The position numbers and the translations under genes were made by a program. From a virus: a stretch of DNA of 26,011 nt. Each line of letters opens with the position of its first letter. Within the stretch, counting starts at the first letter, position 1. Under the pieces are notes generated by a model, which saw only the letters and a program-made list of their open reading frames with translations, ran no database searches and had not been told where the DNA came from. This document shows positions 5,433 to 18,840 of the stretch, in pieces. The DNA is taken from IMG/VR virus record IMGVR_UViG_3300032238_000043, positions 1 to 26,011 of that record. One strand, 5' to 3'.

Positions 5433-5454
5433 GTAGGTGTTTTTATCCACCTAC
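5433..5454 (-). other. Short inverted repeat spanning the stop of tail tubular protein B
   Basis: A 7-bp perfect inverted repeat (GTAGGTG / CACCTAC) with an 8-base A/T-rich spacer covers the stop codon at 5443-5445. There is no following T run on the minus strand, so it is not a standard intrinsic terminator. It could protect or process the messenger RNA, or be chance. Confidence 0.35.
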
Positions 5455-8175
5455 GGCAACTTCAAGAGTCAAACCGACAACGGAAAGGGGTAGGGGATTG
5501 GTTTGGCGAATCCAAATCTGGCCACTGGTAGTCCAGCTTGGAGTCAATAGAACCTGGATCTCGTCCGTCTTGAGGGTGGGCGTCGTCTCGTACGGATCAA
5601 AGGGAACAAGATTGTCGGTATCAGGCCCAATGCTGATGCCGGACGACCGATAGAGGCGCAACCAAGCCTTGTTGAGATTCTTGGTCCGGCCCTGCCCGTA
5701 TCCATCAATCTGCATGGTTACCGGCAACGTCTGCAAATCGGCAACAATCGGCAACCCAACTGTGACGATGGACGCCGCCGAATCCAAGGTAATCGCTCCG
5801 TTCGACACCACCTTTTGTGACTGCACCTTGCCATCGGCCAACACGTTTACCGTGCGCCCATTCAAATGCGTCAAGTTCGATACGGTCGTAACCGGGCTGC
5901 CAAAGGTTTGCGTCAACCCGCTATCCACGAAGAAGCTGGTTGCAATACTGGTGAACGCCATCGTGGACATGCGCTCGACGTAGCGGACCGTGCTGCCGCC
6001 AATCGTTCTAGCCACGATCACGTAGAGTCGATCCTCTTCGCCCTCGCTAACGGATGCACAGGATTCGATCACATCGCCGCCAGTATCGTGCTGGTGCCAT
6101 GCGCCAACCTGCTCTTCAGGGATGTAGGTCAGCCCTAGCAACTTGCCAGTGCTCGACACAAACCACAAGACAGGGTTGGGAGCCTTGCTGTAGGTCATGT
6201 CCTTGATGGTAAACCCATCGAACAAGTGCCCGGCTCGGATCGAAAGGTCTCCAGTGATGTAGCTCTGAGCTTGCCAGTTGTAGCCCAACTCGCGCACATG
6301 GCCGCCACGATTGGCGCAATACACTAGCGCATTGTTGACCACGCTAGGCTGCACGTTGCTAGCGCCGATATACGACTGTGGTCGAACGGCTACCGTGCTC
6401 GGAGTCAAGGCATCCGAGTTGACGCTAGTCACCCGCCATTCGGCTGCATTCGTCAGCAAGATCAACTGGTTTAGCGGAACGATATGCCGAATCGTGTTGG
6501 CTTCTCGCGCCGATACCTTGAAGTAGATGCGATCCGAATCCTTGACCGGGATGCCATAGGATATGTTGGATTCCGTGCCAGATCGCGTCATCCAAATGCT
6601 CTGAGGATCGGTGGTTGTCCCGGCAAAGCACCGACGTTGCTCAAAGTAGCTGACCGCACCAGGGTAGTTGTATTGGGTAGCTAGCGAGGTGTTGTCTACA
6701 ATGGGAATGGTCGTTCCCATGTCTGGAGCAATGTTGTCGTCTCTGAAGGTTACCGTATCGCTTTGGCCAAGGTAGCCAAACAAACCAGACTGCTCTTTGT
6801 AGATGTTGTATCTGACGGCAGAATTTACTACGCTCCACACTAAAGTGTTGTAGCTGCCAACAACGTATAGGTTGTTGTTGACCGAGACTTCAGATGAAGG
6901 CAGTGATTCGTTGCCGTTGCTGTCAACAGCCGTCACCTTGTATTTTTGAGTAATGTCGCTAGTGACAGCCGTCCTAGAAATAGAGCCGTTTTGATAGAGA
7001 GTTAGGCTGTGGATTCCGGTTCCAGTAGACGAAAATGTTTTGATCGTAGCAGCCAAACTATCGGCAATGCTGAACCGATTATTGGCCGGGTCGCTATTGC
7101 GAACTACATAAGTAACATTTGGCAGGAAAGTTCCACCGGCCGACACGGTTGGAAGATTTGCTGTTGTAGTAAACCTAATCTTTGTGCCATTGACTAGCGT
7201 ATGCCCAGTCCAAGTGACGTATTGAGTTCCGCTTGCAAATGTGACCGTAAATGTGGTGTTGAATAAAGATCCGCCAGCGTAATCACGAAGAGTGATTGAT
7301 CCAGTGCTTGCAGTAATGGTATCAATAACCCAGTTGCGACCATCTAGATACGAAAGCCCACTGCCAACAATTGTCAAGTAATCGCCAACAATCAAATCAA
7401 TGTTTGCTGGTAACGTTGTCAACAAAGAATTGGTTAGCGCTGGTGGAGCAAACGGATGTTGAGCAATAGTTGAGATGTTGTAGTATTGCCCAGGAGTCGC
7501 CGTCACCTGCAAACTTGTTGGAGCAGGAAGGCTAGGGGCAAAACTGATCTGGCTGAAAACCCACTGAGTAGCGCCGTATCGACGCAACTCCATAGGGGGA
7601 TATTTGGGATGCACCAGAGTTAGCACATCCCCAGATTGCACATAGTGAATGTCGAAATAGTCGATTGTCGAGTAGTCGTAATTGTTCGGGATCTCGAAAA
7701 TATTGACCCCGCCTTCAATCGGCTGAGGATACCAATAGGTAGGGCTAGCAGACGGGGTTTGCCCGGTTCCGTTTTGGATGCAGTAGTAGTCTACGCCCGA
7801 GTAGCTGGCCAAATCGCCAACTACATATGACTGCCCAGCCAAATACGCGCTTGCCGTCGTCGTCAACGTTCCTGCTGCCGTGTGAAACCTAAAGTATCCA
7901 TTGGTTGCAGACGCACCCCGACTACCCAACTCGATTACCAGCGTATCCGTTGGGCTGTAGGCGAACGGAATCAAGCGCGCCTTCCTAGATGCAGTCTTGG
8001 TCGCGCGCACGAACTCAAACCCAGGGCGCATCTGGGCCGGTCCCTGTGGCTTCACGATGAAGTTGCGAATCTTGGCGGCACCCGACTGGAAGTGAGTGTC
8101 GTCAATACGCCCGAACATCTCCGGGCTAACTTCGCCACCGGCAAACGACCGTTGGAACGTGCGCGTGTTGACCAT
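5443..8175 (-). CDS. Tail tubular protein B (T7 gp12-like nozzle), with added beta modules (910 aa)
   Basis: The start is the ATG at 8175, 2 bp after the preceding stop; an upstream in-frame TTG at 8196 is less likely because it lacks context and overlaps the neighbour. The N-terminus MVNTRTFQRSFAGGEVSPEM and the following RNFIVKPQGPAQMRPGFEFV are the typical opening of podovirus tail nozzle proteins, which form the distal tail tube. At 910 residues it is longer than T7 gp12 (794). Extra modules are visible: residues about 108-150 (YLAGQSYVVGDLASYSGVDY then YC and GTGQTP) resemble small carbohydrate-binding repeats; residues about 309-393 form a beta module also present in the cement paralogue at 11407-12123; residues about 405-480 (KYKVTAVDSNGNES) look fibronectin-III-like. 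The core after residue 500 (YFEQRRCFAG, LTNAAEWRV) is characteristic of the family. It follows tubular protein A, as in T7. Confidence 0.92.
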   Translation of the reverse strand: MVNTRTFQRSFAGGEVSPEMFGRIDDTHFQSGAAKIRNFIVKPQGPAQMRPGFEFVRATKTASRKARLIPFAYSPTDTLVIELGSRGASATNGYFRFHTAAGTLTTTASAYLAGQSYVVGDLASYSGVDYYCIQNGTGQTPSASPTYWYPQPIEGGVNIFEIPNNYDYSTIDYFDIHYVQSGDVLTLVHPKYPPMELRRYGATQWVFSQISFAPSLPAPTSLQVTATPGQYYNISTIAQHPFAPPALTNSLLTTLPANIDLIVGDYLTIVGSGLSYLDGRNWVIDTITASTGSITLRDYAGGSLFNTTFTVTFASGTQYVTWTGHTLVNGTKIRFTTTANLPTVSAGGTFLPNVTYVVRNSDPANNRFSIADSLAATIKTFSSTGTGIHSLTLYQNGSISRTAVTSDITQKYKVTAVDSNGNESLPSSEVSVNNNLYVVGSYNTLVWSVVNSAVRYNIYKEQSGLFGYLGQSDTVTFRDDNIAPDMGTTIPIVDNTSLATQYNYPGAVSYFEQRRCFAGTTTDPQSIWMTRSGTESNISYGIPVKDSDRIYFKVSAREANTIRHIVPLNQLILLTNAAEWRVTSVNSDALTPSTVAVRPQSYIGASNVQPSVVNNALVYCANRGGHVRELGYNWQAQSYITGDLSIRAGHLFDGFTIKDMTYSKAPNPVLWFVSSTGKLLGLTYIPEEQVGAWHQHDTGGDVIESCASVSEGEEDRLYVIVARTIGGSTVRYVERMSTMAFTSIATSFFVDSGLTQTFGSPVTTVSNLTHLNGRTVNVLADGKVQSQKVVSNGAITLDSAASIVTVGLPIVADLQTLPVTMQIDGYGQGRTKNLNKAWLRLYRSSGISIGPDTDNLVPFDPYETTPTLKTDEIQVLLTPSWTTSGQIWIRQTNPLPLSVVGLTLEVAVGG

Positions 8176-8177
8176 GA

Positions 8178-10469
8178 TTATCGCCCCGACATCCAAGAGA
8201 CAATGTGTTCCGGCTTGATGTTGCGCTGGCTACCGTCGCTAGCTTCCGCCTTTGACAAGTATGCAGCCATCATTTGCTGGCAACGCTTGGCTTCAGCCGA
8301 GCCAATATCGCCCTTGAGGATCGGACCCGCCAACATGCTGGCCAAGTGCCACGATAGCGCCATGCTGAACAAGGGCGTAAAGTGATTCGGTTCAGTCACC
8401 AACGAGCAATAGCGAAGGACGGCATCAGCTTGATCCGTCAGGATGATTTGGTCGCCATCCGCATTCACCTCAACTTGGAACGGCTGAGGCGCATACCGAC
8501 CGGCTGCAATAATCGGGATGTTGTTGGCGAAGTAGCCAGGGCTATCGGTGGGCGAGAACCGGGTGCTGTAGTCGTCCGTCGCTTCCGGTGGCAATACGGC
8601 GAAGATGCTGGCAACGCCGGGAGGAACCATGTAGCAGTAGTCCCATTCCGGCCAACTGTTCTCGACAGCCGTCAACGCCACTCGACGGGTAGCAAACGAC
8701 CAATACCGCATCTCCAATAGACTGTTGCGCGCAATCGGGTAGAATCGAGCGCACAAGGCTGCTTGGGTAGAGCCGTCCACAGGGTCAATGCTGGTGACCT
8801 TCGCCGTATCGCCAATATGCGATAGAGCAAGGTTGCAAATGTCTAGGACGCCTTGCGTAGACGCCGACTCGGAAGCGCGAATGTTTTGCCAAGCGGCATA
8901 CGCACGCTCTTCCAGCATGACCGCACCAATACCGGAATAGTGCGCAAGGTCATCGGGCTTCCTAGGAATGTCCGACACATCGAAGGTGCGCATGTATCGG
9001 TCATCTTGAGCCGCACGCTCGATAGCCGTGTTGATCGTGCTAGCGTATGACCAGTAGTCAGGGTTGATCTTGGGATGAACCCATGGCAACGTTTCGGCGC
9101 TTGCAGTCCACAATCCACGATTCTTGAGTTCTTGACGAATACGAGTCTTGAACGTCTTGAGGTTGTAGAGGTAGCGATTGGCCATGTTCTCAAATGAGCC
9201 ATCGCCTTCGCCTTGCGTAAAGAATACACCTACGCATTGCAGGGTATTACCTTCGATGGCAGCAGCAGCAATGGCCGCATCAAGCTCGTCCATCAGTCGG
9301 GCAAAACACCCGTTTGGTTCGCCAGGAGACCACGAACCTTGCTGCTTGTAGTCGCTCCAACCAATGGTTCCGTAACCTTCAGTGACCAGCGCCGTCGTCG
9401 TGCCAAGCTCTGTGTGAGCCAGCGTGCTACCGCCAAAATCGCTAGCGACAACGTAAATGTCCTCACCCAAGGCATCTTGAATGCTGCTTGCAAGACCAAC
9501 ATGGTAGCTTACCCCAGGAGATACCGAGCCCTTGCCGGTTTCCATTGGGGAATATGCTGGCAACAAATGCCAATGATTTGGGTAATCAAAGCCTTTGGGA
9601 TATGGATTGGGCCGAGTTACCAAGCTATCGGCGTTTGATGTGGTATACCCCTCATACATTGTCCATGGCAGGAAATATGCATACTGCTTGAAGTTGGCGA
9701 CGGGCGCGTTGCCTATAGTCCAACTGGTGATGGTAGAGGGTTGCGTGATCGTCAGGACATCGCCAAGAGACGCATTTGCTGAGAACGCATTCGTAGTGAC
9801 GATGAATGGATTGCCGGTATCAACTCCGGTAATAATGCGCCCATGGCCTTGGTTTTGAGGCGTTCCACTCAAACAGTTCAGTTGCAATCCGTTTAGCGTG
9901 CCAATCCACTTTTGGCCAAACTTGATGTTTAGCTCATAAGTCGAGTTTGTGCCGTTAGCCCAGCACTTAACTTCATACGTGTATTGTTCGCCAACAACTG
10001 GAGTGGTAGCAAAAGCCGAGCTGATGGTAAGCGCCGTTCCAGCGCCTCCGGCTAGCGCCGAACCAGCCGTTACCGTGCGAGTCTCACCAGTCTTTTGGCG
10101 GGTGATGGTAAATTGCTGTGACGAAGTATAGCCTCCAGTCTTGAAGATTTGCACCACGTTCAAAGTAGTGCCAGAGCTACCAGCCAAGATGCGCCCAACG
10201 CCAGGATAGGTATCGTATCCTGTAGCCCAAGGGTGGTAGAAGGTCAGGTATCGGATCGAGCGGATAGCCCTGCTGTATAGGTCTAGCGTCGTGAATCCGG
10301 TAAAACTTCCCGGCATCGTAAACGCATCGCTATAGGAGCCAACGCCAGACGCATTCGGGTCGATCAGGCGAAGGTTTAGCTCGGGATGCTTCAACAGCCA
10401 GTTGAACAAATCTGGCGATGGACCTCCATTGCTTTGACCAAACGAAAGAATGAACTTCTTGACTGCCAT
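8178..10469 (-). CDS. Fusion of an SGNH/sialate-esterase-like hydrolase to tail tubular protein A (763 aa)
   Basis: One continuous frame encodes two parts. Residues about 1-535 form an SGNH (GDSL-type) hydrolase: FGQSNGG at 10-16 with the candidate nucleophile Ser13, DFGGSTL at 344-350 as a block II Gly, FTQGEGD at 417-423 as block III, and DDLAHYSG at 506-513 giving the candidate Asp507/His510 pair. Residues about 90-270 are a beta-rich insertion with two similar starts (VGRILAG, HGRIITG). Residues about 537-763 match tail tubular protein A (T7 gp11, 196 aa): VLDICNLALSHIGDTAKVTS, then ARFYPIARNSLLEMRYWSFA. Such esterases remove acetyl groups from surface polysaccharides; the gp11-like part joins portal and nozzle. 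The ATG follows GAGG by 7 bp and directly follows an intrinsic terminator. The fusion is read in the sequence; the esterase activity is inferred. Confidence 0.9.
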   Translation of the reverse strand: MAVKKFILSFGQSNGGPSPDLFNWLLKHPELNLRLIDPNASGVGSYSDAFTMPGSFTGFTTLDLYSRAIRSIRYLTFYHPWATGYDTYPGVGRILAGSSGTTLNVVQIFKTGGYTSSQQFTITRQKTGETRTVTAGSALAGGAGTALTISSAFATTPVVGEQYTYEVKCWANGTNSTYELNIKFGQKWIGTLNGLQLNCLSGTPQNQGHGRIITGVDTGNPFIVTTNAFSANASLGDVLTITQPSTITSWTIGNAPVANFKQYAYFLPWTMYEGYTTSNADSLVTRPNPYPKGFDYPNHWHLLPAYSPMETGKGSVSPGVSYHVGLASSIQDALGEDIYVVASDFGGSTLAHTELGTTTALVTEGYGTIGWSDYKQQGSWSPGEPNGCFARLMDELDAAIAAAAIEGNTLQCVGVFFTQGEGDGSFENMANRYLYNLKTFKTRIRQELKNRGLWTASAETLPWVHPKINPDYWSYASTINTAIERAAQDDRYMRTFDVSDIPRKPDDLAHYSGIGAVMLEERAYAAWQNIRASESASTQGVLDICNLALSHIGDTAKVTSIDPVDGSTQAALCARFYPIARNSLLEMRYWSFATRRVALTAVENSWPEWDYCYMVPPGVASIFAVLPPEATDDYSTRFSPTDSPGYFANNIPIIAAGRYAPQPFQVEVNADGDQIILTDQADAVLRYCSLVTEPNHFTPLFSMALSWHLASMLAGPILKGDIGSAEAKRCQQMMAAYLSKAEASDGSQRNIKPEHIVSWMSGR

Positions 10470-10480
10470 CGCGATACCTC

Positions 10481-10530
10481 AAAAAAATGCTGGCCGCACC
10501 GGGAAACCCCTCTCGGCACGGCCAGCAAAA
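10481..10530 (-). terminator. Intrinsic terminator between capsid and tail genes (T-phi-like position)
   Basis: Inverted repeat TGCTGGCCG (10488-10496) and CGGCCAGCA (10519-10527) with further G+C pairing possible inside, followed on the minus strand by seven T (10481-10487). The T run is immediately followed by GAGG, the ribosome site of the tail gene. T7 carries its main late terminator in the same place, between capsid gene 10 and tail gene 11. Confidence 0.85.
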
Positions 10531-10839: not shown

Positions 10840-11382
10840 TCAGATAATCGTGAAACTCTTGGGGTAAACTGAACCCCAGACTGGATTACTAGCAGTTCCG
10901 GGTGCAGGATTCCAGCCATAAGTGTCTTGATGGTCAAGGCACAAATCGACCGTCACTCGGCACTTGGGATCGGCTGCAAGGCCATTCGCCAAAACCGCAT
11001 AACTTGCACCAAGATAGAGTTGACTCTTGGATCGCAACCAATCAATGTTGCCACCAATCGGGACAATGATCCGCGCACCAGTAGGTAGGCCGGTGGTGCT
11101 AGAAGCTGTAGTGCAAACGAACGAATCGCTCACTCCAACAATCTTTGAATCATTGATCAAATCGGAAGTACTTGCGACACGAACTTGGAATTGAACTGTT
11201 GCTGGTCCGCCACTGCCCAAAAACTCCGAGTTCACATAAAAATGAGCGTAGAGAATTTGGCCCTGACCAAGATCGCGAACTTGAGACAAGTTCACAATAT
11301 TGGTACTAACTGTCAGCGTATTGACTAGCGCCCCGCCCACTTGCTGGGAGTCCGCCAACCTAAGTAATTGATCTACAATCAT
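10840..11382 (-). CDS. Bbp16-like capsid cement (decoration) protein, copy 2 (180 aa)
   Basis: The 180-residue protein starts MIVDQLLRLADSQQV, very similar to the opening of its upstream neighbour (MYVDVFNRLADAQAV), and shares with it the elements SQVRDLGQGQ / LARDIGEGTQ and a following beta-rich body (VQFQVRVASTSDLIND, GARIIVPIGGNIDWL). Bordetella phage BPP-1 carries a cement protein, Bbp16, next to its major capsid protein; the N-terminal pattern and position fit that family. Such proteins bind the outer capsid surface and stabilise the shell. A very strong ribosome site (AAGGAGG, 8 bp before the ATG) suggests high expression, as expected for a protein present in many copies. The C-terminus (DLCLDHQDTYGW) has no counterpart in the paralogue. 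Family call is by recognition of pattern and context. Confidence 0.75.
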   Translation of the reverse strand: MIVDQLLRLADSQQVGGALVNTLTVSTNIVNLSQVRDLGQGQILYAHFYVNSEFLGSGGPATVQFQVRVASTSDLINDSKIVGVSDSFVCTTASSTTGLPTGARIIVPIGGNIDWLRSKSQLYLGASYAVLANGLAADPKCRVTVDLCLDHQDTYGWNPAPGTASNPVWGSVYPKSFTII

Positions 11383-11406
11383 GGTTTAGCCCTCCTTGGG
11401 CTTACC

Positions 11407-12123
11407 TCAGGCCACCGTAAACCCGGAAGCGTGGAACTTACGACCGTCTTGGATGTTGTGAACAACATCAACGTTCCAAGTACCGGCAACATTGGATGGA
11501 CTTGCAATTGACAAAATCCCACACAAGTATCGAGCGCCATACCGGGCAATCCTGGGATTGATTTCCACAGCCAGAGGGATTTGTGGAACAGCACTGCTAA
11601 CTGCTACTTCAGCTAGGCCAATAGCGCCACTATCGCCAACGTAAATGTAGGCTACTTGACTTGCGGTATGGGCGCCGCTTTGCGTGCCAGTCGTATTAAT
11701 GGGAGTACCCGCCAAGGCATTTGCAAGACTCGTAGCAAGGCGGAAAGTAGTCGTGCTGCCAGTATTGATTACGTAGTAAGTAAGTGCAGCAGCCAATCCG
11801 GTTGGCAAGGTTCCGGTAGTAGCCAATTGAATTGGGCTACCAGTTTGCATTGCGTGAGTGCCGGACCCCAAAGTAACAACGCCAGGACTTGCAACGGAAA
11901 TTGTTACAGTTTGCTGCAAAATATACAACGGGTAATCACTGACCACCATCTGGCAATTCAAAGTCCCCGTGCCAGCAAGCGTTGGCGACGGCGAAAACAA
12001 AGCGGTAAGCTGAGTGCCTTCGCCAATATCGCGAGCCAGAGAGAGGTCAATGTTGTTTGCAGTAAAAGTGGTTGCGGTAACTGCCTGAGCATCCGCCAAC
12101 CGATTAAAAACGTCAACGTACAT
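11407..12123 (-). CDS. Bbp16-like capsid cement protein, copy 1, carrying an inserted beta module (238 aa)
   Basis: This 238-residue protein begins MYVDVFNRLADAQAVTATTF and shares the cement-family opening with the next gene. Residues about 72-155 (VTISVASPGVVTL, then TGTLPTGL, ALTYYVIN, TTGTQSGAHTA) form a compact Ig-like module found widely as an insert in phage structural proteins and also seen in tail tubular protein B of this window. Without it about 154 residues remain, close to a usual cement protein. After the insert come VPLAVEINP-like and ARYLCGILSIASPSNVAGTW elements. It lies 27 bp downstream of the capsid gene with a strong ribosome site (AAGGAG) 7 bp before the ATG. Role: surface decoration of the capsid, with the module probably exposed. 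The role is inferred; the paralogy and insert are visible. Confidence 0.78.
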   Translation of the reverse strand: MYVDVFNRLADAQAVTATTFTANNIDLSLARDIGEGTQLTALFSPSPTLAGTGTLNCQMVVSDYPLYILQQTVTISVASPGVVTLGSGTHAMQTGSPIQLATTGTLPTGLAAALTYYVINTGSTTTFRLATSLANALAGTPINTTGTQSGAHTASQVAYIYVGDSGAIGLAEVAVSSAVPQIPLAVEINPRIARYGARYLCGILSIASPSNVAGTWNVDVVHNIQDGRKFHASGFTVA

Positions 12124-14230: not shown

Positions 14231-14413
14231 TCCGGTGAGCATGTGCAGGATAATGATAATGCAGCCAATAATGGTCAGGATTGCCAAACAGGCTACCCCT
14301 CCCATAATGTAGTTGTTAATGGGCGAAGGCGAGCAATAGACCTTGGGGCACTTGTGCTCTAGGCCCTGCTTGTAGATAGTCCCACAGGAGGTGCAAACGA
14401 TATAGGCTTCCAT
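14228..14413 (-). CDS. Small Cys-rich, zinc-ribbon-like membrane protein (61 aa)
   Basis: The 61-residue product has an N-terminal Cys cluster (C7-x2-C10, H20, C22, C27 in CTSCGTIYKQGLEHKCPKVY and C) that resembles a small zinc ribbon, followed by one strong membrane segment at about residues 37-58 (IMGGVACLAILTIIGCIIII). The ATG at 14413 overlaps the TAA stop of the upstream gene. I do not recognise the family. One membrane span and small size would be compatible with a holin or spanin partner, but no endolysin lies nearby and the Cys cluster is unusual for a holin, so I do not assign a lysis role. The overlap with its neighbour and the clear two-part design make it a likely real gene. Confidence 0.65.
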   Translation of the reverse strand: MEAYIVCTSCGTIYKQGLEHKCPKVYCSPSPINNYIMGGVACLAILTIIGCIIIILHMLTG

Positions 14414-15162
14414 TATCGACGCCTTAGGTATGCGGATCTGCCAGTAGTTCCGCCAAAGCCCTCATTGATGATGCGCACAAATCCGGCAACATAGTTCCGA
14501 TTTTCAATGATGCTGATCACCGAGTCATTGACTATCTTGCAGAGGATTCGGGATACCGCCTCTCCAATGTATTCCGTATCGCCAAGCGCACGACGGAACG
14601 CAAAGGTCGTAGCTAGGTTGTCGGCGATATACTCAAAGTCGCCAAGAGTCTTGCGTAGGGCCAGGCTAGTGGTGTCGTCCGCATCGCCCTTGCTAGTTCC
14701 AACCAGCAAATCCTCGTTGATGATACGCACAAGTGCGCGTACCGAGACGAGGCCCTCGTCGATCTTCTCTAGGTCGGATACAGACCGAATCTGGCCCAGA
14801 ATCCGTTGAACGGCATCGGTGATGCTTTCCGTATCGGATACCGAGCGGATAGCCCCGATAACCTTCAATACGGCATCAGCAATGCTTTCGGTGTCGGAGA
14901 CCGTCCGAACCACCGACATGAGGCGCGAAACCGCTTCCGATACTGATTCAGTTTCGGATACCGAGCGAACAATCGACAGTACGCGCGATACTGCCTCTGA
15001 AACTGCTACATCTTCGTCAGAAGAGTCATCGCCGCCCTTGACGCGAACGATGGCAAGTAGGCGCGATACCGCTTCCGATACCGCTTCCGTCTCGGTTCTG
15101 ACGCCGATGATAGGCGTTGGCGGCAAGCCACCGCCACCGCCCTTCAATAGCGTCAGAAGCAT
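14413..15162 (-). CDS. Protein of tandem 20-residue repeats (249 aa)
   Basis: After MLLTLLKGGGGGLPPTPIIG the protein consists of repeats with the consensus TESVSEAVSRLLxIVRSVSD. Five consecutive units occupy residues 51-150, an earlier partial unit lies at 21-40 separated by an acidic insert (GGDDSSDED), and degenerate units continue at about 176-213. Each unit has an acidic stretch followed by a helix-like part ending in Arg-Ser. There is no membrane segment or catalytic motif. Repeats of the 'vSdtesvSeav.r' kind occur in phage structural or fibre-associated proteins, but I know no assigned function. It follows the Kelch-like protein by 4 bp and overlaps the small membrane protein gene. A solenoid or fibre-like structural role is inference only. 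Confidence 0.8.
   Translation of the reverse strand: MLLTLLKGGGGGLPPTPIIGVRTETEAVSEAVSRLLAIVRVKGGDDSSDEDVAVSEAVSRVLSIVRSVSETESVSEAVSRLMSVVRTVSDTESIADAVLKVIGAIRSVSDTESITDAVQRILGQIRSVSDLEKIDEGLVSVRALVRIINEDLLVGTSKGDADDTTSLALRKTLGDFEYIADNLATTFAFRRALGDTEYIGEAVSRILCKIVNDSVISIIENRNYVAGFVRIINEGFGGTTGRSAYLRRR
14713..15012 (-). repeat. Tandem 60-bp coding repeats (five units)
   Basis: Positions encode residues 51-150 of the repeat protein, five in-register units of 20 codons. Unit ends read RSVSE, RTVSD, RSVSD, RSVSD and RIINE, so the first four are close and the fifth has diverged. Nucleotide similarity is also visible, for example in the repeated plus-strand element GTATCGGATACCGAGCG. Confidence 0.8.
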
Positions 15163-15166
15163 AAGA

Positions 15167-16603
15167 CTAGAACAGCATCAAACGTTGCATGGGCCCTGTA
15201 GATGCTGGGCTTGGTGCATACAGGTAGGTGATCTTGGTTGCACCGTCTGTATATACGAAGTCAAAAATCGTATTGGATGTCCAAGTAGTAAAGCTGGATA
15301 TGTAGTTAGTTGCGTTTGTGATGCCAATGATTCTGCGCGTTGCAAGATCAAATGAATACCAATACTGCTGCCCAGTATTCCTTGCATCTCTTGCGTAGAT
15401 TCGGTCTCCACTATGCACAAAATCTACAACGGTGATGTTTTGAAGACCGCCAGTTGTGATGCTGTTGGACCAAGTATTCAAAGCAATGTCGTAAACATCC
15501 ATGCCAGAACTTGATCTCCACCCATAAATGTATCGTCCATTTTGGATGGCGTTCTCATTAGTCCACGATGAATCAGATACTTGGCTGATCCAAGTAAACC
15601 CAGATTGTGCTTGTTGAGTAGACCTAGCAGTAGTAGGCGATAGCGTTGTCCAGGTATTGGTAGAAATCTGATAGCGATACAGCGTCACAGCACTGTTGCC
15701 GGTCAGATATAGAAAATCATCATTGCCTTCGATGGAATAAACCGACGTATTGTCCGGTGTAGTAGTCCATGTCGGCACTGTCAGCGTGTCGCCAGTATTG
15801 CTGCTGATCGTGCGAATCTGGCCAGCACCAGTTCCACTCACAATGCGAACTTGGTAGTTTGTCCACTGGTTGGTCGTCCAGGCCTTGGCCGAGTTGACCA
15901 AAGTAGTTCCAGTTGCACTGGTCGCCGTGCCAGTTGCAAACTTCAGATAATCATCATCAAGCCAACTTGGTGTTGCTACAAGTTGCGCATATGTTGTGAA
16001 CGTGGACGGAAGTCCAGTCACAGGCAGACTCGTCACCGTTGCTGTTGCATGGTCGTAAACTAAAAAGAAATTACCGGAAAGAGTTCCTAGAGAAAACGTG
16101 TAGACTCTTGGAGTGCAAAGCCGAAATACTGTAGACGCACTAAATGCAGACGCTTGCGTCGGAACAGTGATTACGCTGTTTGCGCCGATTGTATTGCTTG
16201 TGATGGTTAGCGTAGAACCTGCATTTGGCCCGGAAAGAATATGAATCTTGTACCCGGCCAAGCTCTGCACCAAAGTCTGGTTTGTAGCAATCGTGCTAGT
16301 AGTTCCAGACAAAGCAGTCAACGATGCTACACCAGTTGTGCTACCAGTAGACCATGGAATAGCCACCATTGCAGAACCAGATGAAGTTCCGTTTACGCCA
16401 CTGCTCCTTAAGTTTACGGTGCCATCTTCAATCGGGTCATAAATGTTGAAATTGCTAGACCCAACATAAGTAAAAGCTAGTGGTTTAGTGTGCCTAATAT
16501 GGCATATGGGGTTGCCAACGGTAAAGTTAAAAAACCCACCGCTTGGGATTGGTTCCCATCGCCTCAAATCAAGCAGCTTCCGATTGCCGTTTGTAGTTGC
16601 CAT
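15167..16603 (-). CDS. Kelch-like beta-rich phage structural protein with duplicated module (478 aa)
   Basis: The 478-residue product opens MATTNGNRKLLDLRRWEPIP, a start I associate with a group of phage virion proteins encoded near portal and capsid genes. Residues about 98-163 and 225-292 are two copies of one beta module (SLAGYKIHILSGPNAGSTLT versus NYQVRIVSGTGAGQIRTISS). Residues about 295-470 show Kelch-type elements (LYRYQISTNTWTTLSP, MDVYDIALNTWSNS, YWYSFDLATRRI), suggesting a beta propeller or part of one. There is no catalytic motif. Thr, Ser and Asn are very common, as in fibres and surface proteins. The gene starts 1 bp after the preceding stop. A head fibre or surface decoration role is inference. 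Confidence 0.78.
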   Translation of the reverse strand: MATTNGNRKLLDLRRWEPIPSGGFFNFTVGNPICHIRHTKPLAFTYVGSSNFNIYDPIEDGTVNLRSSGVNGTSSGSAMVAIPWSTGSTTGVASLTALSGTTSTIATNQTLVQSLAGYKIHILSGPNAGSTLTITSNTIGANSVITVPTQASAFSASTVFRLCTPRVYTFSLGTLSGNFFLVYDHATATVTSLPVTGLPSTFTTYAQLVATPSWLDDDYLKFATGTATSATGTTLVNSAKAWTTNQWTNYQVRIVSGTGAGQIRTISSNTGDTLTVPTWTTTPDNTSVYSIEGNDDFLYLTGNSAVTLYRYQISTNTWTTLSPTTARSTQQAQSGFTWISQVSDSSWTNENAIQNGRYIYGWRSSSGMDVYDIALNTWSNSITTGGLQNITVVDFVHSGDRIYARDARNTGQQYWYSFDLATRRIIGITNATNYISSFTTWTSNTIFDFVYTDGATKITYLYAPSPASTGPMQRLMLF

Positions 16604-16604
16604 A

Positions 16605-17030
16605 TCAAGTCACTACTATGTTGTTTCTGAGATTGTATGCGTTGGAAGATTGCAACTCTACATGAAGCTGCTCAGATCCGACCTTTCCGGCCAATGACAC
16701 CAAACTAGACAATGTGGTAATAGAGGGAGAGTTGCCAACCGATACCGTGTTTGTTGCCGATCCCGTCAACTGAACTTTAAGATTGCTATTATAGTCAATA
16801 GACAACCTTGAGACTGTGCTAGCCATGGTTTCAATTGCCATGCGCATGGCTTCAATCGCTTCGATCAACTCACCATAGGCAGCAATCGGTAGCGGATCGG
16901 TAGACGATACATCCGTCGCCGTCCCATCGACGCCAACAACCGGCTTGACGCGCTGGTAGAGGACGCCGCCGATTTCGTCGGCTGCAACCGTCGCACCAGA
17001 GCCCGGCGTGTAGCCAACGTTATCTGCCAT
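16605..17030 (-). CDS. Phage structural-type protein of unknown role (141 aa)
   Basis: The 141-residue product begins MADNVGYTPGSGATVAADEI and GGVLYQRVKPVVGVDGTATD, a segment seen at the start of many phage structural proteins that lie beside head or baseplate genes. A helix follows (LIEAIEAMRMAIETMAS, residues about 55-71), then a beta-type C-terminal half with Ser/Thr/Asn. No catalytic or membrane elements. The start is 1 bp after the preceding stop (TAATATG) and the end 1 bp before the next start, so it is translated together with its neighbours. Function is unknown; a minor virion component is the natural inference from the operon. Confidence 0.75.
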   Translation of the reverse strand: MADNVGYTPGSGATVAADEIGGVLYQRVKPVVGVDGTATDVSSTDPLPIAAYGELIEAIEAMRMAIETMASTVSRLSIDYNSNLKVQLTGSATNTVSVGNSPSITTLSSLVSLAGKVGSEQLHVELQSSNAYNLRNNIVVT

Positions 17031-17031
17031 A

Positions 17032-17541
17032 TTACGTTCCCGTCATCGTGTGGTTGACAAACACCTTGAGGGTATCCGTCGTGGCCTTGGTAAACGTGCT
17101 GCTAAACAGTGCTCGCATCAAAATCGGCGAGGTTCCACTCGCGCCAGCTTTGGCAATTGCAACGTCGGCAACATTGGTATAAGTAGTGCCGGTGCTAAAT
17201 GAGCAGGCATAGGTAACAACTTTAGTGCCTCGCCCAGAATTGTCGGTATCCGAATCATTGCTCTTTGGATATCCAGAAATCATGGCGGTTCCACCAGTAT
17301 TCTGAATACTGCTCAAGGCAGCATACGTTTGATTTTTAGCCGGGGGGGTAGTGGCTTGCGACAAAAACATCAAGCCATCAAAAGCCCCTGATGTCCAAAA
17401 ATTGGTAGGCGTCGTGCCACTAGCGCGTTGTGCGTAGTAAACATCGCCATCATCGGTCACAATGTTTTTGGTCTCGTGAACCTCAACCTCGCCATTTGCC
17501 TTTTCAAGAACGGCAATAATCTTAGTATCTACAACACGCAT
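17032..17541 (-). CDS. Phage structural-type protein of unknown role (169 aa)
   Basis: I choose the ATG at 17541 because AGAGGAG lies 6 bp upstream; a longer form from GTG at 17613 (193 residues), overlapping the preceding stop, has no ribosome site. The product starts MRVVDTKIIAVLEKANGEVE and continues VHETKNIVTDDGDVYYAQRA, a pattern I associate with phage proteins of unknown function encoded near structural genes. The remainder is beta-rich (GTKVVTYACSFSTGTTYTNV, LKVFVNHTMTGT). No enzyme motif is seen. It ends 1 bp before the next start. Virion association is inferred from the operon and composition. Confidence 0.72.
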   Translation of the reverse strand: MRVVDTKIIAVLEKANGEVEVHETKNIVTDDGDVYYAQRASGTTPTNFWTSGAFDGLMFLSQATTPPAKNQTYAALSSIQNTGGTAMISGYPKSNDSDTDNSGRGTKVVTYACSFSTGTTYTNVADVAIAKAGASGTSPILMRALFSSTFTKATTDTLKVFVNHTMTGT

Positions 17542-17547
17542 AAGTGG

Positions 17548-17554
17548 CTCCTCT
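17548..17554 (-). promoter_or_regulatory. Ribosome binding site that decides the start at 17541
   Basis: Minus-strand AGAGGAG, 6 bp upstream of the internal ATG, while the upstream GTG at 17613 has no such site. Confidence 0.7.
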
Positions 17555-17609
17555 GGTTCTCCCTTGCGAAGAACGAATACAACGTTGTCCTTGATGTGAT
17601 TGGTCGAGT

Positions 17610-18086
17610 TCACGATGCAGTCAGCTTGGAAAGGAATGCCTTGGCCGAGTCGGCACGCTTCTCAAGCGCCAAGACATCGTTGTTGATCTGAGTGACCTCT
17701 TCCTTGGCTTCCTGCAACTTCTTCAAGGCTTCTTCCTTGGTTTCAGTCGCGTCATCCAGGGTCTGTTGCGCTTGCTCAAGGATGGAAGCTGCCATCTCCT
17801 TGGCTTGAGCCACGATCAACTCGCGTTCAGCCTGGGCCTGCATCAGCAACGATTCCGCTTGTGCGCTAGCCGTCGCCTTGATGGTTTCGATACCCTCGCG
17901 CTCCGCTACAAACCGAGCTTCAGTGTCCTTGATGGTCTGCTCATACTTGGCGACCTTGGCCTGAAGTTCACCCTCGTATTGTTCTAGCGAGCCCAGCTTC
18001 TTGAGCGCGTCCGCCAGTTCTTGGAGGACAGCAAACGTATTGGCAAGTTTCTGCACGTCGGCAGCCGCCTTAAAGGACGAGTTCAT
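17610..18086 (-). CDS. Coiled-coil protein of unknown role (158 aa)
   Basis: The 158-residue product is almost entirely helical and charged. Heptad-like patterns run from about residue 20 to the end (ALKKLGSLEQYEGELQAKVA, ILEQAQQTLDDATETKEEAL, EVTQINNDVLALEKRADSAK). No signal peptide, membrane segment or catalytic motif. The ATG overlaps the preceding TGA by one base. In context, between small structural-type genes, a rod-like virion component or an assembly helper is plausible, but nothing in the sequence decides. Ala, Glu and Gln are very abundant. The family is not recognised. Confidence 0.75.
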   Translation of the reverse strand: MNSSFKAAADVQKLANTFAVLQELADALKKLGSLEQYEGELQAKVAKYEQTIKDTEARFVAEREGIETIKATASAQAESLLMQAQAERELIVAQAKEMAASILEQAQQTLDDATETKEEALKKLQEAKEEVTQINNDVLALEKRADSAKAFLSKLTAS

Positions 18087-18432: not shown

Positions 18433-18840
18433 TTATGCCAGTCGGGTTAGCTTGTAGAGAGTCGTCGAGAGAAGCGTGCAGATGGAGTCGATATCATTCT
18501 GAATGTGTGTCTCGCTTCCCATCGTGCCACGCTTCGTCTCGACATATTCGTAAGCGGCTTGAAGTTCGGCGATAGGGCTACCGGCAATGGTGAAGCTGCC
18601 ACCACCAAACTTGAGCTTTTGCCCCGTGCAGCCCATCCACGATTCGGCTAGGCCGTCGGTCAGATCGGCAAGCTCGTTGTACATGCCAAGTGCGGTGTGC
18701 GCCGCATAGCTACCCGGCCCATCGACCATCAGATGATGCATGTGAATCGCCGTGCTCGCGTGCAGCAAGCGCGTGATAAACTCGGATGAGCCACCGGCAT
18801 CACCGGCTGGGGCGTCATAAAGAAGGGTAGACCTAGGCAT
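18433..18840 (-). CDS. DUF5856-like protein (135 aa)
   Basis: The 135-residue product contains FITRLLHASTAIHMHHLMVD, SYAAHTALGMYNELADLTDG and LAESWMGCTGQKL, which fit the DUF5856 group of phage proteins ('H.lHl...syaeHkaL...Yd...dl.D.l.E...g'). The His and Glu spacing and the helical character suggest a four-helix, ferritin/Dps-like fold, which is my inference. The C-terminal helix is IQNDIDSICTLLSTTLYKLT. It lies directly after the portal gene (TAACCATG). Its role in phages is unknown to me. The first 15 residues (MPRSTLLYDAPAGD) are probably flexible. Confidence 0.75.
   Translation of the reverse strand: MPRSTLLYDAPAGDAGGSSEFITRLLHASTAIHMHHLMVDGPGSYAAHTALGMYNELADLTDGLAESWMGCTGQKLKFGGGSFTIAGSPIAELQAAYEYVETKRGTMGSETHIQNDIDSICTLLSTTLYKLTRLA

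Follow-up and report, generated by a model that had tools for sequence, protein, structure and literature searches.

Enzymes that act on the host surface usually belong to the fibres or spikes of a phage, which are easily swapped modules. The ordinary arrangement is seen in Carin-1, whose depolymerase is placed on the tail fibre (PMC13317679). Virion-borne SGNH domains are known from tailspikes and fibres too; gp41 of Acinetobacter phage Aristophanes is an SGNH deacetylase that takes an acetyl group off the K26 capsule (PMC8471582), and spikes of this type are attached through an N-terminal fibre or spike anchor. The SGNH esterase of PBR31, in turn, is a separate protein of 215 aa. Connectors such as Carin1 gp37, BPP-1 bbp14, T7 gp11 and P22 gp4 are encoded as a single copy before the nozzle gene, and gp11 and gp4 form dodecameric rings (PMC5440376). 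Tail tubular proteins A (TTPA) of KP32, KP34 and phiYeO3-12 have been reported as "dual-function" hydrolases (PMC5440376, PMC5741709, PMC7060351), with the activity in KP32 ascribed to the TTPA fold. On the enzyme side, the SASA/CE6 family (PF03629; At4g34215, 2apj; CAC0529, 1zmb; E. coli NanS) has described sequence blocks that include a family-peculiar QGE motif (PMC9487903). In CE20 esterases, which belong with SIAE, the domain is split by a variable beta-rich insert, and this ancillary domain is more variable than the core and contributes to the active site (PMC12313940).

The locus described here joins a SASA-like esterase to a connector. The window, meaning the whole stretch of 26,011 nucleotides that was analysed, is a 26-kb virus record and a fragment of a genome. 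Its gene order is of the Bordetella phage BPP-1 type: terminase, acetyltransferase, portal, protease, capsid (PF20911) and two Bbp16-like proteins, followed by the fused gene, the nozzle (phrog_376), an internal virion protein, a bbp11-like protein and a giant bbp10-type gene that is cut by the window end. The fused gene and its surroundings are laid out as follows.

8178-10469, minus strand: SGNH/SASA esterase-tail tubular protein A (connector) fusion, 763 aa (frame, Pfam, PHROGs)
8865-10469, minus strand: SGNH/SASA hydrolase domain, residues 1-535 (Pfam SASA and fold match)
8178-8849, minus strand: tail tubular protein A/connector domain, residues 541-763 (phrog_394; 8ck1_E by sequence and fold)
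10477-10480, minus strand: GAGG, resembling a ribosome-binding site, 7 bases 5' of the ATG of the fused gene (sequence)
10488-10527, minus strand: terminator-like hairpin (-30.4 kcal/mol, z -4.1), then seven T, just 5' of the fused gene (RNA fold)
5443-8196, minus strand: tail tubular protein B/nozzle, which follows the fused gene and probably starts with the ATG at 8175 (phrog_376, E 3.7e-192)

The very stable hairpin ahead of the fused gene is a likely terminator. The nozzle protein is enlarged, at about 917 aa against about 681 aa for BPP-1 bbp13, and its residues 117-155 give a chitin-binding-like CBM_5_12 match just under the cut-off.

The preliminary description had read one uninterrupted frame across both domains, and the frame is borne out: it opens with ATG and runs for 763 codons on the minus strand with no internal stop, and at the junction the connector domain lacks a separate start codon. 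The gp11-like adaptor placed at the C-terminus also holds. PHROG 394 (tail protein) matches residues 540-763 (E 1.2e-36), and the connector part matches the phage Carin1 connector by sequence (8ck1_E, E 1.7e-16), with residues 541-763 sharing 31% identity with gp37 over 192 aligned residues. Compared with stand-alone connectors of about 207-230 aa, the fused protein has about 540 extra N-terminal residues. These carry the SGNH motifs at the residues first named for them.

10428-10439, minus strand: GQSN motif of block I, residues 11-14, with Ser13 as the putative nucleophile (no variation across the six fused proteins)
9684-10202, minus strand: beta-rich, variable insert that separates block I from block II, about residues 90-262 (model strands; dN/dS)
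9426-9434, minus strand: block II, GGS, residues 346-348 (sequence)
9201-9215, minus strand: block III, QGEGD, residues 419-423 (Q419, G420, E421 and D423 invariant)
8940-8951, minus strand: block V, Asp507-x-x-His510 (Asp507 and His510 both invariant)

To follow these motifs we aligned six full-length fused proteins, the window protein included. G11-Q12-S13-N14, Q419-G420-E421, D423, D507 and H510 do not vary in any of the six. Block II, the expected source of the oxyanion-hole Gly, is looser: it reads GGS in the window, GGT in L016 and L017, and VGS, ISS and NSS in L049, L061 and L018, and is thus not kept in half of the set. The GQSN, QGE and DxxH elements are those of SASA/CE6 and CE20/SIAE enzymes, and residues 379-522 score 28.1 bits (E 1.9e-6) with Pfam SASA (PF03629), above the curated cut-off of 24.8. 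The same profile scores 34.6 bits in L016 and 42.2 in L049, while a long variant, L018, reaches 16.1 bits and falls under the Pfam cut-off. The SGNH core is under purifying selection, with dN/dS of 0.06-0.15 between close pairs of fused proteins; the insert evolves faster, at 0.35-0.39. Lying between blocks I and II, this insert recalls the CE20 ancillary domain, a tentative parallel.

Searches with the esterase part alone found little kin. It gave no match above chance in named phages, where the esterase part of L016 weakly matched one minor tail protein, from an Arthrobacter phage, and nothing else. It had no match in plasmids, among which the connector part alone was matched, and none in GTDB genomes. 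Solved SASA enzymes in the PDB likewise showed no sequence match, and profile and sister-protein queries returned chance matches only.

The AlphaFold2 model of the fused protein was built from a 35-sequence alignment and is of moderate quality, with a mean pLDDT of 61.5 and a pTM of 0.48; the esterase core lies mostly at pLDDT 75-88, and residues 14-68 and 346-379 are below 50. Residues 1-534 superpose on At4g34215 (2apj) with Z 18.7 over 206 residues at 2.9 A, on 1zmb with Z 18.0, on XAC1771 with Z 16.1 and on mammalian SIAE with Z 15-16 (15.7), so that the model takes the same SGNH alpha/beta fold as SASA/CE6 and CE20/SIAE enzymes. Residues 539-754 superpose on 8ck1_E with Z 17.5, and the connector fold also fits T7 gp11 and KP32 TTPA with Z of about 12. 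The superpositions proposed in the preliminary description, of the first part on sialate O-acetylesterases and the last on T7 gp11, give Z 15-16 for SIAE and about 12 for gp11. Contact between Ser13, Asp507 and His510, whose lack in a model was named there as a refutation, is supported indirectly at best: the fold agrees with that of SASA enzymes from end to end, but the loop just after Ser13 is modelled with low pLDDT. Because the motifs are conserved and the fold is matched, the esterase domain is probably active.

Two proteins in BFVD, A0A516LTA4 (1084 aa; E 7e-46, TMq 0.54) and A0A516LMG1, match the fold of the fused protein over nearly its whole length, and since the match spans almost the entire length they probably have the same architecture. 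We found no described precedent for an SGNH-connector fusion in the literature searched. SGNH virion deacetylases are already known, and what is apparently new is the mounting on a connector. Unlike SASA/CE6 enzymes, this esterase belongs to a phage connector protein; unlike Aristophanes-type spikes, it has no anchor and is continuous with the connector, and it would be carried on the virion by that route. It also differs from KP32 TTPA in adding a separate esterase domain, and from the free-standing PBR31 enzyme.

The junction bears on whether the two domains stay together. The linker, ASESASTQG, is small and polar, and the length of the junction varies between fused proteins, as might be the case if the protein were cleaved after translation to leave an ordinary TTPA in the connector and release a soluble esterase into the lysate. 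Such processing seems to us improbable: the aligned fused proteins share no conserved cleavage motif at the junction, and a single model helix, of moderate confidence, spans it at residues 513-551. Alternatively, a short TTPA could be made from an internal start alongside the full fusion; the ring would then be mixed and hold few copies of the enzyme. An in-frame ATG does lie about 25-26 codons before ICNLAL in the window, L016 and L017, but it has no Shine-Dalgarno-like sequence ahead of it, and start codons at the junction are not conserved, L061 having none within 40 codons. From the sequence, an internal start for free TTPA is unlikely, and we see little prospect for the mixed ring.

With the window coming from just one metagenomic record, misassembly or a frame error in that contig could have created the fusion. 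We scanned IMG/VR by profile with the TTPA, taking the 80 closest loci each time. Together with earlier relatives this gave at least 81 distinct TTPA sequences, 11 of which are fused, the window's included. Among the matches listed there were at least ten further distinct SGNH-TTPA fusions with the same domain order on other IMG/VR contigs, two of which were each found identically in two metagenome assemblies, and the near-complete records G010 and G013 carry the same fusion. These independent copies in other contigs refute an assembly error, leaving that reading next to no chance; they also answer an early suggestion to look for the same domain pair in phage genomes. The fusions fall into two size classes, one of about 770-780 aa (L016, L017, L049, L061; L053 is incomplete) and one of 1020-1190 aa (L018, L105, L128; L020 and L106 are incomplete).

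In the first 13 relatives the TTPA stands alone at about 207-229 aa, mostly with the start MASE-xDICN, and a SASA domain was sought in these 13 and found in none. It is present in 10/11 fused records and 0/10 stand-alone IMG/VR records. In a maximum-likelihood tree of 81 TTPAs, one branch (support 100/97) separates the 11 fused from the 70 stand-alone proteins, and the fused or stand-alone state changes once. Since the fused TTPAs are one clade with one change on the tree, the phylogeny indicates that the fusion arose once, or was lost once.

Several observations bear on where the fused protein would reside. Each of the 11 fused records searched, among them three of 41-43 kb, has no phrog_394 gene besides it, and it adjoins the nozzle gene as connector genes do in relatives, again in single copy. 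Because it is the only connector gene, the fused protein probably sits in the connector ring. The preliminary description had the enzyme held at the portal-tail junction; its placement in the ring is probable on these grounds, and assembly with the enzyme exposed would be a further step.

If the enzyme sits on the connector, the tail fibre becomes of interest. Gene order was compared between 11 genomes with a stand-alone connector and six fused records. In all 11 stand-alone genomes a fibre gene directly follows the giant gene, and these fibres share an N-terminal anchor that is also present in BPP-1 bbp9. A bbp9-type fibre gene follows the giant gene in none of the four fused records that cover the site (G010, G013, G014, G018), which gives an association of 11/11 against 0/4. 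Fused records have small membrane-protein- or lipoprotein-like frames there, probably lysis genes, and then recombination genes. An HMM of the anchor is found in 11/11 stand-alone genomes and gave no match in the window or any fused record; since it was derived from the stand-alone group only, gene order outweighs the missing match. It had been noted at the outset that no separate spike was visible in the window. The window stops inside the giant gene, before the fibre site, so absence cannot be judged from it alone; the near-complete fused genomes are what support it. Because the fused group is one clade, the fibre's absence counts as one event and not as independent cases, and its link with the fusion, seen in gene content, could be coincidence.

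Within the window there is a further adhesin candidate, a 478-aa kelch-like protein (15167-16603, minus strand). It lies in a four- or five-gene cassette between portal and protease (14413-17613, minus strand), which may itself decorate head or tail or supply a second adhesin. A fibre of another type may be among the unassigned genes, for example this protein in the window, G013, G014 and G016. The esterase might then be a virion enzyme that only removes acetyl groups close to the membrane, with host binding left to another protein, be it the 478-aa protein, the enlarged nozzle protein or an unrecognised fibre. In keeping with this, those three fused records all have the 478-aa protein and the genes beside it, which match in none of the 11 stand-alone genomes, and the window nozzle has its near-cut-off CBM_5_12 match. 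However, the fused 41-kb record G010 lacks the cassette and its large genes are assigned other roles, so that one or more of the fused phages seem able to do without it. Stand-alone connectors, too, can be accompanied by an enlarged nozzle protein (G023, 1015 aa). We regard a mere trimming role as rather unlikely, if still the alternative to be weighed with most care.

The explanation we favour, and consider reasonably likely, is that this uncultured BPP-1-like short-tailed phage has a connector bearing an N-terminal SASA-type SGNH acetylesterase that is mounted on the ring and does the fibre's job. An ancestor would have acquired the esterase as an N-terminal extension of its connector and done without a bbp9-type fibre, the surface enzyme thereby shifting from detachable fibre to connector ring in that one ancestor. 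The fused protein would take its place in the ring that links portal and nozzle, in up to 12 copies by homology, with the esterase domains outside the ring, around the portal-nozzle junction. At adsorption they may use the customary Ser-His-Asp mechanism to deacetylate the host's capsule or O-antigen, and so do the work of recognition or clearing for which relatives have a tail fibre. Ring assembly with an exposed enzyme, esterase activity, its substrate and the takeover of the fibre's job are what we infer. More tentatively, and with somewhat less than even confidence, we propose a podophage lineage in which the connector ring is itself the adhesin, with up to twelve esterase domains replacing detachable fibres altogether.

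Such an arrangement would matter in several ways. Across one clade an enzyme has become part of an essential core protein, and the fibre gene is absent alongside. If our explanation is right, host range would be tied to the connector, and the ring would be a natural scaffold for a circle of esterases. It is also a warning for annotation, as genomes that appear fibre-less may hide a receptor-binding enzyme in a "tail tubular protein".

Other genes of the window are unusual as well. At 10840-12123 (minus strand) lie two adjoining genes related to the Bbp16 cement protein (238 and 180 aa); the relatives read have a single such gene at this place, and an insert in one of the two is similar to a tail-fibre profile. 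In the portal-protease cassette, 14413-15162 (minus strand) encodes a 249-aa protein of near-repeats of the type SVSETESVSEAVSRLL, with no confident family. A 135-aa protein in the structural cluster (18433-18840, minus strand) matches phrog_858 and DUF5856. Finally, Limnohabitans phage DC33 (L011, PQ492659.1) is filed as Inoviridae, yet has BPP-1-like podophage virion genes, and the taxonomy line of PQ492659.1 looks wrong.
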